From Flavipsychrobacter sp. (GTDB taxonomy: Bacteria; Bacteroidota; Bacteroidia; Chitinophagales; Chitinophagaceae): a stretch of DNA of 64,000 bases. The stretch covers positions 496,001-560,000 of the forward strand of contig JAEUVX010000002.1 of NCBI GenBank assembly GCA_016786615.1, given 5' to 3'. The position numbers and the translations under genes are program-made. This document shows positions 5,825 to 9,813 of this stretch, in pieces (the first letter of the stretch is position 1; each line of letters starts with the position of its first letter). The notes beneath the pieces were generated by a model that searched no databases, was not told where the DNA came from, and saw only the letters and a program-made list of their open reading frames with translations.

Positions 5825-6919
5825 CTAATCGCTGTACTCTGTGCCTTTGTTATAAATGCGGAACATATTCATCCCTATCTGGTATTTCAGAACATCGTAA
5901 CTCAGCTCCCAGTTTTCTAGTTCTGCATTCGTAACATCATATATCTCTCCCTCTGTAAAAAGGCGCAACATCCCCATCCTGTTGATGTAAGCAATAGAAT
6001 TGTATTGCATGACATATTTTTCGGGGTAGTAGCTTTCCAGTGTATAAACATTGCCTTTATAAAAAACCTTGAAATAGCCGCTCTGGTCGCGATATGAAAC
6101 CATATTGTCTGCCACGCGTACATCCTGCGGCGTGAAAAACCCTATACTGCGTACACTGTCTTCATAAAACACTTTAAAATAACCGTCATTAGAGACGAAT
6201 GCTACAACATTATCTCCTGCCTGATAACTTATCGGCGGAAAGTCTTCTACTACAAAAGTTTGCCCGCTATGGAAAATTTTAAACTGCCTGTTTATATCTA
6301 AATATGCAACTGTGTTACGTCCTACTTCAAAGCTGCTGACAGCATAATTTTCCTGCTCCAGTATCTCTCCTTTATAAAATATTCTGAACTGGTTAGCGTA
6401 ATTATCATAAGCTACTATATTGTCAGACACTTTTATTACCTCTAACGGATTACCTGCCAGAAAGCCCTCTATAGGATATACCTGGCCATTGTAATATGCT
6501 TTATACTCACTTCTCACTCCATCGAAAAACAGTATGACGCTATCGCCCATATAATATTGAGAGCAAAACGTTGACAGGTTTTTTACATTGCCTTTATCAA
6601 AAACATTCAATGATTTATTGTTCATGAATGTCACCAGATTATCCGACACTTTGAACTCATTGGTAAATCCGATATTGACGGTCTTCACCCCCCCTGCATA
6701 GTAAATCTTAAATGATCGGGAATTATCCAAATATGGTATCGCTACCCTTCCTATTTTCACTTCAATCGGGGTTAGGTAATCTACCTTTCTTATCATACCC
6801 TTATCCCAAACCATAACCTGATTCTGCATATTGACATAGTATGACAACTGGGCATGAGCAGAATAACTAAAACTAACTAGGAACAACACAATGAATAAGG
6901 CTCGGGACATATGAAGCAT
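5825..6919 (-). CDS. Secreted protein of tandem 35-residue repeats
   Basis: A 364-residue protein with a signal peptide ending near AHAQ (residue 24); a second ATG at residue 4 (6910) is an alternative start. The mature part is almost wholly repeats. From residue 27 the units are 35, 35, 33, 40, 35, 35, 35, 35 and 35 residues, then a partial unit of 20. A typical unit reads AYxDxxxxFKVFYKG, then an acidic/aromatic stretch, then a VxDNxV end. The alternating hydrophobic pattern suggests short beta-strands, as in a propeller or solenoid. I recognise no named family and no catalytic motif. No T9SS sorting domain is present. A periplasmic or surface role is inferred only from the signal peptide. 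Confidence 0.75.
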   Translation of the reverse strand: MLHMSRALFIVLFLVSFSYSAHAQLSYYVNMQNQVMVWDKGMIRKVDYLTPIEVKIGRVAIPYLDNSRSFKIYYAGGVKTVNIGFTNEFKVSDNLVTFMNNKSLNVFDKGNVKNLSTFCSQYYMGDSVILFFDGVRSEYKAYYNGQVYPIEGFLAGNPLEVIKVSDNIVAYDNYANQFRIFYKGEILEQENYAVSSFEVGRNTVAYLDINRQFKIFHSGQTFVVEDFPPISYQAGDNVVAFVSNDGYFKVFYEDSVRSIGFFTPQDVRVADNMVSYRDQSGYFKVFYKGNVYTLESYYPEKYVMQYNSIAYINRMGMLRLFTEGEIYDVTNAELENWELSYDVLKYQIGMNMFRIYNKGTEYSD

Positions 6920-6939: not shown

Positions 6940-6996
6940 AAAAAAGCCGACCTGAGAACAGGCCAGCCCCTATAAACCCTATCACTATGAAAACTT
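6940..6996 (-). ncRNA. Candidate small RNA, copy 1 (about 57 nt)
   Basis: A minus-strand promoter with TTTG (7031-7028) and TAATTTTG (7007-7000) separated by 20 bases predicts a start at about 6996. That is exactly the edge of a 51-base block (6946-6996) repeated at 7063-7113. The unit ends in a 9-base-pair hairpin with two G-U pairs and a TTCT loop, followed by six T on the minus strand. It carries no open reading frame on its own strand. Confidence 0.62.
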
Positions 6997-7113
6997 TTAC
7001 AAAATTAAATATTGATTAAATTTTACCCAAAAAGTTTTTTCAATATGGCTATAAATAAAAAAGCCAGCCTGAGAACAGGCCAGCCCCTATAAACCCTATC
7101 ACCATGAAAACTT
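6946..7113. repeat. Direct repeat of 51 bases (6946-6996 and 7063-7113), 117 bases apart
   Basis: The two copies agree at 48 of 51 bases. Identity stops abruptly at both ends, and the sequence between copies is unrelated. On the minus strand each copy forms a terminator hairpin preceded by a conserved stretch containing GATAGGGTTTATAGGGG. Two of the three differences fall inside the hairpin stem and keep the pairing by exchanging G-C with G-U. This whole 310-base gap (6920-7229) is accounted for by the two units and their promoters. Confidence 0.9.
7000..7031 (-). promoter_or_regulatory. Promoter of small RNA copy 1
   Basis: On the minus strand TTTG (7031-7028), 20 bases, TAATTTTG (7007-7000). 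Both boxes and the spacing match the Bacteroidota consensus. Confidence 0.68.
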
Positions 7114-7157
7114 CTTATAATAAAACGCCGAAGCGCAATATGGTATCAGATTTCTTA
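7057..7157 (-). ncRNA. Candidate small RNA, copy 2 (about 100 nt)
   Basis: A minus-strand promoter at 7191-7161 lies between the end of infC and the second repeat copy. A start near 7157 and the hairpin-plus-six-T terminator at 7085-7057 define a transcript of about 100 nucleotides. Its 3' half is the repeated 51-base block; its 5' part is unique. Readthrough from infC would also end here, so the same hairpin serves as the infC terminator. Confidence 0.55.
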
Positions 7158-7160
7158 ATG

Positions 7161-7191
7161 CAAAGGTAAGAATCGTTTCATTTTAAAACAA
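7161..7191 (-). promoter_or_regulatory. Promoter of small RNA copy 2
   Basis: On the minus strand TTG (7191-7189), 20 bases, TACCTTTG (7168-7161). It lies downstream of the infC stop codon and points away from it, so it cannot serve infC. Confidence 0.68.
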
Positions 7192-7229: not shown

Positions 7230-7784
7230 TTATTTCTTCTTTTTAGGCGTAAAAATAGCTAACATCCTGCGTCCCTCCATCTTCGGCATCGACTCTAATA
7301 AGCCAACTTCCGTCAATCTTTCAGCAAATTTTAACAAAAGCAACTCCCCTCTTTCCTGGAACATGATAGCACGCCCCTTGAACTGAACATAGCATTTCAC
7401 CTTATTACCTTCCTGCAGAAACTTCTCCGCATGTTTGGCTTTAAAGTCAAAGTCATGTTCATCCGTATTAGGTGTAAAGCGTATTTCTTTTACCTCAGAC
7501 TGTTTTGCTTTTGCCTTTTGTTCTTTGTCTTTTTTCTTCTTTTCGTACAAAAACTTCTTGTAATCAATCAGACGACAAACGGGTGGCACAGCATTCGGAG
7601 ATATTTCTACCAGATCCACTTCCTGCTCTTCTGCCAACCTCAATGCTTCGGCAAGCGGATATACTGCAGGCTCTATACCTTCGCCTATCAGGCGCACTTC
7701 GTGTGCGGTTATTTCACGGTTTAAACGATGTTCGTTTTGCGGTACTCTCGGTTTAAAATATGGTCCTTTACTTCTTCTTTGCAT
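7230..7784 (-). CDS. infC: Translation initiation factor IF-3
   Basis: A 184-residue protein that binds the 30S subunit, keeps subunits apart and checks the start codon and initiator tRNA. The N-terminal domain (about 12-80, with NREITAHEVRLIGEG and VCRLIDYKK) and the C-terminal domain (about 95-180, with KEIRFTPNTDEHDF and FKGRAIMFQERG) are joined by a lysine-rich linker. The start is ATG at 7784. A -7 element TATTTTTG (7815-7808, minus) lies just upstream, so infC may have its own promoter besides readthrough from thrS 85 bases away. rpmI and rplT, normally next in this operon, do not follow. Confidence 0.96.
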   Translation of the reverse strand: MQRRSKGPYFKPRVPQNEHRLNREITAHEVRLIGEGIEPAVYPLAEALRLAEEQEVDLVEISPNAVPPVCRLIDYKKFLYEKKKKDKEQKAKAKQSEVKEIRFTPNTDEHDFDFKAKHAEKFLQEGNKVKCYVQFKGRAIMFQERGELLLLKFAERLTEVGLLESMPKMEGRRMLAIFTPKKKK

Positions 7785-7869: not shown

Positions 7870-9813
7870 CTACTTCTTACCGCTTATTTGTTCTTTTACT
7901 GTGTTTGTAATATCTGCTATAAACTCTTCCAGTGTCATTGTCCCCTTATCACCTTCTCCATGTTTGCGTACGGCTACCCTGCCTTCATTCATCTCTTTTT
8001 CACCAACAACAAGCATATAAGGCACTTTCATCAGCTCTGTATCACGTATTTTCTTACCTATTTTCTCATTTCTGTCATCTATTTCTGCACGAATACCAAC
8101 ATCCTTCAATGCTCTTGCCACGCTCTCTGCATATTCGCCAAACTTATCGCTGATTGGTAATACTTTCAACTGTACCGGGGCTAACCATAATGGCAGGTTA
8201 CCACCACAGTGTTCCAACAAAACTGCTATAAAACGCTCCATAGAGCCAAACGGTGCACGATGTATCATTACCGGGCGTTTGCGGCTATTATCGCTGTCTA
8301 CATATTCCAGTTCAAAGCGTTCAGGCAGGTTGTAATCTACCTGTATAGTACCTAACTGCCAGCTACGCCCCAGTGCATCCTTCACCATAAAGTCGAGCTT
8401 AGGGCCATAGAATGCGGCCTCGCCATATTCTACTACCGTTTTCAAGCCCTTCTCTGCGGCAGCCTGTATGATGGCCTGCTCTGCAATATGCCAGTTTTCT
8501 TCGCTGCCAATGTATTTGCTGCGATCTTCTTTATCGCGCAATGATACCTGTGCTGTAAAGTTTTCGAAATCAAGGGATGTAAATACATACATCACCAGGT
8601 CTATTACTTTCTTAAACTCTTCCAATACCTGGTCCGGGCGGCAGAAAAGATGTGCATCGTCCTGAGTAAAGCCACGTACACGTGTCAGGCCATGCAATTC
8701 GCCCGACTGCTCGTAACGGTATACAGTACCAAACTCTGCAAGGCGGAGCGGCAGATCTTTGTACGAACGTGGAGATGTTTTGTATATCTCACAGTGGTGC
8801 GGACAGTTCATCGGCTTCAGCATAAACTCTTCACCCTCTTGTGGTGTAGTTATAGGGCGGAAGCTATCCTTACCATATTTTTCCCAGTGACCTGATGTTA
8901 CATACAATTGCTTGCTACCAATATGTGGCGTAATAACCGGCAAATAACCCGTATCTAACTGTGCTTTTTGCAAGAATTGTTGCAGACGTTCGCGCAACAT
9001 AGCACCTTTCGGCAACCACAAAGGCAAACCACTACCCACTTTCTCAGAGAACGCAAACAGTTCCAGTTCCTTGCCCAATTTTCGGTGGTCGCGCTTTTTA
9101 GCTTCTTCCAGCAATGCAAGGTGCTCGTCAAGCTCCTTCTGCGCAGGGAATGTTACACCATAAATACGGGTAAGCATTTTGTTCTTTTCATTTCCCCTCC
9201 AGTATGCGCCGGCAATGTTCATCAGCTTGACAGCTTTGATGAAACCGGTATGAGGAATGTGTGGCCCACGACACAAATCGGTGAACCCGCCTTGTGTATA
9301 GAATGTAATCTGGCCGTCTTCCAAACCTTCAATCAGCTCCAGCTTGTACGGGTCTTGCTTTTCAGTAAAATATGTTACCGCATCATTCTTGCCAACATCT
9401 TTGCGTACATACACACTGTTTGTTTTGGCAAGCTCGCGCATTTTGTCTTCAATCTTTTTAAGCTCTTCTTCTTTCAATACACGGTCGCCTAAATCTATAT
9501 CGTAATAAAAACCGCTATCGATTGACGGCCCGATACCCAACTTTACACCCGGATATAATGCCTCCAACGCTTCCGCCATCAAGTGTGCAGACGAATGCCA
9601 GAATGTTGATTTACCATTTTTATCGTCCCACGTCAGCAGTTTTAAAGAAGCATCACTGTTAATAGGTCGTGTGGCATCCCAAACCTCACCATTCACCTCG
9701 GCCGCTAACACCTTACGTGCCAACCCCTCGCTTATAGACTTGGCCACATCCATGGCTGATATACCCGCTTCATACTCCCTTACTGCTCCGTCGGGCAATG
9801 TAATATGTATCAT
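7870..9813 (-). CDS. thrS: Threonyl-tRNA synthetase
   Basis: A 647-residue class II aminoacyl-tRNA synthetase that charges tRNA-Thr. Domain order: TGS (1-62), the HxxxH editing domain (about 65-225, with [11 protein letters not shown]), the catalytic core (about 245-535, with [10 protein letters not shown] holding a zinc ligand, the motif 2 region [22 protein letters not shown] and motif 3 [10 protein letters not shown]), and the anticodon-binding domain (about 540-640). It lies upstream of infC on the same strand, as in the classic thrS-infC order. A -7 element TACATTTG (9852-9845) is 31 bases before the ATG. No T-box leader is visible. Confidence 0.97.

Follow-up and report, generated by a model that had tools for sequence, protein, structure and literature searches.

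Trans-acting small RNAs (sRNAs) of Bacteroidota have been worked out, as far as the literature surveyed is concerned, mainly in Bacteroides. According to passages of PMC11697453, the FopS RNAs repress SusC translation by pairing with the start codon, and the RRM protein RbpB acts as an antagonist. According to passages of PMC7366714, the seed of GibS from Bacteroides thetaiotaomicron pairs over start codons as well. Sections of a transcriptome paper on F. psychrophilum (PMC9723704) also describe sRNAs, the words 'copies' and 'paralog' being absent from the paper, and none of the open-access papers listed by the searches describes such an sRNA in Chitinophagaceae in its title or abstract. Related to this, a multicopy family linked to infC in relatives of Taibaiella would make the sRNA control of translation initiation testable far beyond the gut lineage.

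The infC-linked pair compared with described RNAs

The window (the whole stretch of DNA analysed, 64 kb long) belongs to a genome of 2.96 Mb in 15 contigs (G000). Its minus strand carries, 3' of infC, the pair of 51-nt units with three mismatches that the initial annotation had described. The features of the region are the following:

5825..6919, minus strand: 10-bladed beta-propeller protein, recurrent downstream neighbour of the sRNA pair (PF21734, synteny)
6940..6945, minus strand: T run closing the terminator of copy 1, where the RNA is predicted to end
6946..6996, minus strand: sRNA unit copy 1 (CATAG type, infC-distal), 5' single-stranded seed and terminator hairpin (fold and comparison)
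6967..6993, minus strand: near-invariant single-stranded seed of copy 1, TTTTCATAGTGATAGGGTTTATAGGGG
7000..7031, minus strand: predicted sigma-ABfr type promoter of copy 1, TTTG 7031-7028 and TAATTTTG 7007-7000 (sequence)
7057..7062, minus strand: T run closing the terminator of copy 2, where the RNA is predicted to end
7063..7113, minus strand: sRNA unit copy 2 (CATGG type, infC-proximal) (fold, genome copies, synteny)
7084..7110, minus strand: near-invariant single-stranded seed of copy 2, TTTTCATGGTGATAGGGTTTATAGGGG
7114..7157, minus strand: putative leader at the 5' side of copy 2, within an RNA predicted to be about 100 nt long
7161..7191, minus strand: predicted promoter of copy 2, TTG 7191-7189 and TACCTTTG 7168-7161 (sequence)
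7230..7784, minus strand: infC, translation initiation factor IF-3, conserved upstream neighbour (PF05198 and PF00707, synteny)
7870..9813, minus strand: thrS, threonyl-tRNA synthetase, conserved neighbour (domain match, synteny)

The mismatches between the copies fall at unit positions 11 (A/G), 47 (T/C) and 48 (C/T). Folding recovers in both units the 9-bp hairpin core followed by six T that had been proposed: the hairpin of copy 1 has an MFE of -18.1 kcal/mol (z -3.17, matched by 0 of 200 shuffles) and copy 2 with its leader one of -31.0 kcal/mol (z -2.88, matched by 1 of 200 shuffles). The stem mismatches had been interpreted as compensating changes; pairing is indeed kept (G-C becomes G-U and G-U becomes G-C), but each of them alters one side only, so that the changes within the window are compatible and not compensatory, double changes being found in homologues. 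Judging by the positions of promoters and terminators, both units would be transcribed, from predicted 5' ends, into RNAs of about 56 nt (copy 1) and about 100 nt (copy 2). A search for tRNA and tmRNA genes gave none.

Whether the units belong to an already described Bacteroidota RNA had been left as a question, and the search answers it for Rfam 15: at the gathering threshold no family is found in the 64-kb window, and the nearest sensible family is FopS (RF04319). Its covariance model gives 20.4 and 19.3 bits to the two copies, the gathering score being 56, in an alignment that spans the whole model length and has in common with the Rfam consensus the 5' UUUUCAUGGU and a UAG, with a different extension. 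The same model yields 11 weak matches at E<=10 across the window's genome, none of them above the cut-off; class-wide it is above the cut-off in 12 of 395 genomes and in 0 of the 9 from the window's own family. Thirteen sub-threshold Rfam matches (L20 leader, rli61, RatA and STnc340 included) were discarded, with scores far below the cut-offs. The best E-value of that list is that of the Ribosomal protein L20 leader (RF00558; 22.8 bits, E 0.034, against a gathering score of 58.7), and it is mostly due to the terminator; the next gene downstream of the pair, however, is the PF21734 gene and not rplT.

The likeness to FopS concerns several aspects. Both are multicopy, consist of a 5' single strand plus a terminator, contain UUUUCAUGGU and have intergenic as well as 3'-UTR-like members. 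A TAnnTTTG box is located just upstream in the FopS loci compared, and the window pair has the canonical elements of a sigma-ABfr promoter. Besides, an RRM protein partner is known for FopS, and the window's genome has three RRM_1 genes above the cut-off. On the other hand, the sequence after CAUGG is different, the pair forms an infC-linked tandem, and there are 12-15 paralogues per Bacteroides genome whereas five copies are found here. The SusC targets known for FopS are also missing in that form, since no SusC reaches the TIGR04056 cut-off in the window's genome. GibS, likened here by description and not by comparison of letters, has a long 5' single-stranded seed over start codons as well (passages of PMC7366714), but it possesses two seeds (R1 and R2) and a stationary-phase promoter (passages of PMC11697453). 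In layout and in the 5' UUUUCAUGGU, the FopS RNAs of Bacteroides come closest; the RNA family of the window pair is new, of a known kind (FopS-like), and absent from Rfam.

Copies, conservation and promoters

Copies beyond this locus were looked for as a test of the proposed family, and they are found both in G000 and in its relatives. G000 has five copies: the tandem pair, C6:372705, C6:40046 and C5:156028. Copy 2 used as query gives four more matches in this genome (E 2.2e-23 to 6.6e-17), copy 1 among them. An ORF stop codon immediately precedes the copy at C5:156028, which may therefore be derived from a 3'-UTR. In the same family of bacteria, 46 of the 244 genomes sampled match at E<=2.1e-11, spanning 16 genera, and 56 of 244 at the looser E<=0.01; at most three candidates were scored per genome, and copy numbers from this search are therefore lower bounds. 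A scan of named genomes gave at least 116 stretches, with Taibaiella, Flavipsychrobacter, Edaphocola, Chitinophagaceae bacteria LGM1 and IBVUCB1 and many MAGs among the matches listed. Records labelled Azovibrio restrictus, Phycisphaerales and Bacteroides (L148, L157 and L135) carry the sRNA too, which suggests mislabelled or mixed bins.

The gene neighbourhood is also maintained. The order thrS-infC-[CATGG copy]-[CATAG copy]-PF21734 gene recurs across genera, and tandem copies are present at 39 of 58 infC loci. Counting from infC (G for CATGG, A for CATAG), these 58 loci comprise 36 GA, 17 with G only, 2 A, 2 AA and 1 GAA. Copies are likewise found at loci without infC.

Conservation was analysed in 188 distinct copies from 141 loci, identical and truncated copies being left out. 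Some of these had been retrieved with an exact pattern, so that the full set overstates seed conservation; identities are therefore given for the 96 copies whose loci a BLAST similarity search had found. Homologues hardly vary in the 5' single strand, UUUUCAU[A/G]GUGAUAGGGUUUAUAGGGG: mean pairwise identity amounts to 0.936 for the seed, and to as much as 0.968 for its core of about 17 nt (positions 14-30, GAUAGGGUUUAUAGGGG), as compared with 0.741 for the stem and 0.31-0.32 for the upstream sequence. The exact GATAGGGTTTATAGGG is present in 89 of the 96 copies and the full seed in 74. The stem covaries, with double changes at 7 of 9 pairs and 86 double-change cells against 18.8 +/- 3.4 in shuffles. 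Paired cells amount to 98.8% of 594, a percentage raised by the omission of broken or shifted stems among the seven types dropped from the alignment (L204, L096, L099, L103, L198, L119:1166 and L075:1683), which took 66 of 73 stem types. Covariation of the stem alone would fit a plain terminator too; the invariant single strand would not.

The initial annotation had assigned an own promoter to each unit. This holds in so far as the elements are found at preferred spacings across the copies, but the exact -7 box is missing in 33 of 69 CATAG and 44 of 112 CATGG copies. In both window copies TTG begins 23 nt before the -7 box (TTG-N20-TAnnTTTG). Upstream of the 188 copies TAnnTTTG occurs 118 times, compared with 13.7 in base-shuffled upstreams; the exact box is present in 36/69 CATAG and 68/112 CATGG copies, and 77 of these 181 have none. 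In the CATAG class, the type of copy 1, the box lies at a single fixed place, exact in 30 of 69 copies and with one mismatch in 14 more (background 0.1% and 1.7%, respectively). In the CATGG class, the type of copy 2, 43 of 112 copies have their nearest exact box 44-66 nt upstream of the core, and in most of the other boxed copies it is closer. A TTG 22-23 nt before the box accompanies 25/36 boxed CATAG and 42/67 boxed CATGG copies, the latter class showing a second TTG peak at -19 (15/67). The bipartite TTG-N19/20-TAnnTTTG element of many copies is probably the Bacteroidota housekeeping promoter, as it agrees with the sigma-ABfr consensus quoted in passages of PMC7366714.

The earlier view that the units are tandem small-RNA genes and members of a conserved regulatory RNA family, regulation being the presumed function, is supported by the further copies in the genome, the occurrence in 16 genera, synteny, stem covariation and promoter elements.

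Predicted action at start codons and competing explanations

It seems rather probable that the window units are paralogous trans-acting FopS-like sRNA genes of the Taibaiella/Flavipsychrobacter/Edaphocola group, with their own promoters, and that pairing of their seed at start codons blocks translation initiation. Each unit would be transcribed from its own TTG-N19/20-TAnnTTTG promoter and would end at the intrinsic terminator, giving an RNA with an almost invariant single-stranded 5' seed followed by the terminator stem. The 5' UUUUCAUGGU is complementary to a start-codon context (ACCAUGAAAA), and the seed would pair over the start codons of several mRNAs, thereby blocking translation initiation as described for FopS and GibS, perhaps with the assistance of an RRM-type RNA-binding protein. 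The family, its copy number, seed conservation, stem covariation, promoter elements, synteny and the RRM genes are read from the DNA; transcription, start-codon pairing, repression, RRM involvement and target identities are the parts that we infer, pairing at start codons from the anti-AUG seed and from the analogy with FopS and GibS.

Targets were sought by duplex energies in 402 own genes (464 kb, about 16% of the genome), where seeds with a shuffled extension (ten) and four foreign seeds served for comparison; as gene starts the first ATGs of long ORFs were taken and not annotated starts. The real seed had a mean of -12.50 at start regions, no better than the ten shuffles (-11.79 to -13.31). 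A wobble pattern of the seed complement was found at 122 places, five of which are the sRNA copies themselves, and the reversed control at 183; 7-mer counts near 400 starts gave at most a weak excess (ACCCTAT, 4 against 1.1). Among 12 TonB receptor loci, two with miscalled starts, one start was in the top 2%. In G004, another genome tested with 302 genes, starts below -16 kcal/mol numbered 38, 29 and 39 for the three seeds of that genome, the shuffled means being 29.8, 29.5 and 55.8; the window's seed, included there as foreign control, gave 93 against 57.9 with shuffles that had CAUAG for CAUGG, so that the measure is not specific. No set of targets emerged from these tests, although a small number of targets would escape tests for a global excess that cover about 16% of the genome.

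These negative target tests would also be expected if the family is a real sRNA family whose invariant 5' stretch, with its AUAGGG...AUAGGGG repeats, binds or titrates an RRM-type or other protein instead of start codons. The presence of RRM genes and the very strict conservation of GAUAGGGUUUAUAGGGG (0.968 in the 96 similarity-found copies) are in favour of such a role, and this core remains in six copies without CAU[A/G]GUGAU. Variants without UUUUCAU[A/G]G before the core are seen at L088, L098, L101, L102, L103 and L104; in L098 and L101 TAnnTTTG ends 6 nt before the core, and the RNA would consequently start near GATAGGG. Such copies keep protein binding alive as an explanation. We nevertheless consider it unlikely, because CAU[A/G]GUGAU is kept in 181 of 188 copies (its absence from the other seven indicates that the anti-AUG part is not universal) and because sister families retain UUUUCAU while other 5' letters change, which suggests the anti-AUG motif as the shared feature.

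The remaining explanations take the units for something other than trans-acting RNA genes. As all 98 copies located <=700 nt from infC share its strand, and any terminator would show stem covariation, the units could be mere tandem terminators of infC, that is, 3'-UTR elements without trans function; this is improbable, as a terminator does not need an invariant 5' single strand of 27 nt, promoter spacings are preferred, and copies exist at loci that lack infC. A mobile or repetitive (REP-like) element spread over the genome would account for several copies per genome, one of which in G000 is located about 300 nt before a gene (L003:1827-2483) that we take to be a serine recombinase from its resemblance. 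The recurrent order and strand at infC across genera, the promoter spacing and the unconserved flanks are against it, the exact 19-base core is absent from viral contigs, and phages and plasmids have chance-level matches only (best E 5 and 4), which makes this origin very improbable. Finally, ATGAAAA within the seed complement could belong to a short plus-strand coding gene or leader peptide (ATGAAAACT...). The frame that opens with this ATG is short, however, with a median of 12 codons and more than 50 in only 4 of 172 copies, and there is no conservation beyond the block. A coding origin is thus extremely improbable.

Sister families and a possible wider FopS-like group

The trans-acting FopS-like reading may extend to other Bacteroidia. 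The family model (R1) has matches at E<=0.01 in 77 of 395 genomes of the class and in 140 of 396 of the order; the weak matches read (68, i.e. 28 + 40, two of the 28 being empty) are look-alikes or seedless terminators, and these tallies are thus not family counts. In the class search only G000 and G031 reach 40 bits. Some of the weak matches are RNAs with the same 5' motif and other extensions, and plain terminators are found beside them.

In this way sister seeds were recognised in other genomes of the family: GGUGUUUUUCAUAGGUUAGCAACGGC, GUUUUCAUAGGGUACGGAUUAAAAACGGGC and GGUUUUUCAUAGGAUAUUGGAUUUUAAAACG. Like the window pair, the sister families have the UUUUCAUAGG 5' motif, a terminator stem and several copies in some genomes, but the extension after CAUAGG is another one. 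GGUGUUUUUCAUAGGUUAGCAACGGC with its terminator is near-invariant in 15 copies from 14 genomes and ten other genera of the family (L330, L333-L336, L341, L343, L346, L356, L359, L361 and L363-L366). In G004, a single-contig genome, three seed types with the same UUUUCAUAGG start coexist in 2, 1 and 5 copies (L427-L434).

Of 395 class genomes, 29 are matched by a mixed model (R2) built from 28 sequences. Each of the nine from the own family is among them, together with 20 others that have one match each. G000 and four of those 20 had supplied training sequences. The model selects UUUUCAU by construction, so that the single matches beyond the family are no more than suggestive. The window's type is found in two of the nine own-family genomes, G000 and G031, and other extensions behind the same 5' motif in the remaining seven. 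In the window's genome R2 matched only the five known copies. As a chance control, UUUUCAU[A/G]G was counted before terminator-like hairpins in ordinary DNA, where it is found in 1 of 129 and 0 of 180 cases (permuted-motif means 0.05 and 0.10).

This evidence, drawn from sequence comparison, suggests a wider FopS-like group beyond the window's family. A bolder proposal, which we make tentatively, is that FopS may belong, as a single branch, to a superfamily of start-codon-pairing sRNAs that extends across Bacteroidia and keeps the AUG-covering 5' UUUUCAU[A/G]G, each lineage having its own extension and set of paralogues. The Taibaiella group would then have one infC-anchored seed type, that of the window pair, one genome of a related genus three coexisting types, and G000 possibly a two-site decoy RNA (C6:425060-425205). 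The sister families share little except the anti-AUG motif and would offer a natural experiment in which seeds diversify and the start-codon motif is kept.

The putative decoy comes from 14 near-complements picked by similarity, whose energies are high by selection (strongest L016, -36.4; L023, -33.6; L025, -29.2). It is an intergenic plus-strand stretch (L016:1470-1610) in which two partial anti-seed sites are separated by 74 nt; the second needs one gap and is located in the loop of a terminator-like hairpin. The first site alone, in a gap-free scan, gives 1 match for a shuffled mean of 1.0, not beyond chance. In 396 kb of two relatives neither a similar stretch nor close orthologues of the flanking genes were found. 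The stretch may represent a decoy RNA, or else its opposite strand may carry sRNA copies that have decayed. Another near copy of the seed start, TGTTTTCATTGTGATAGGG, lies after an apparent recA in G000 (L023:1501-1519; C11:126172) without the remaining unit, and is possibly a relic.
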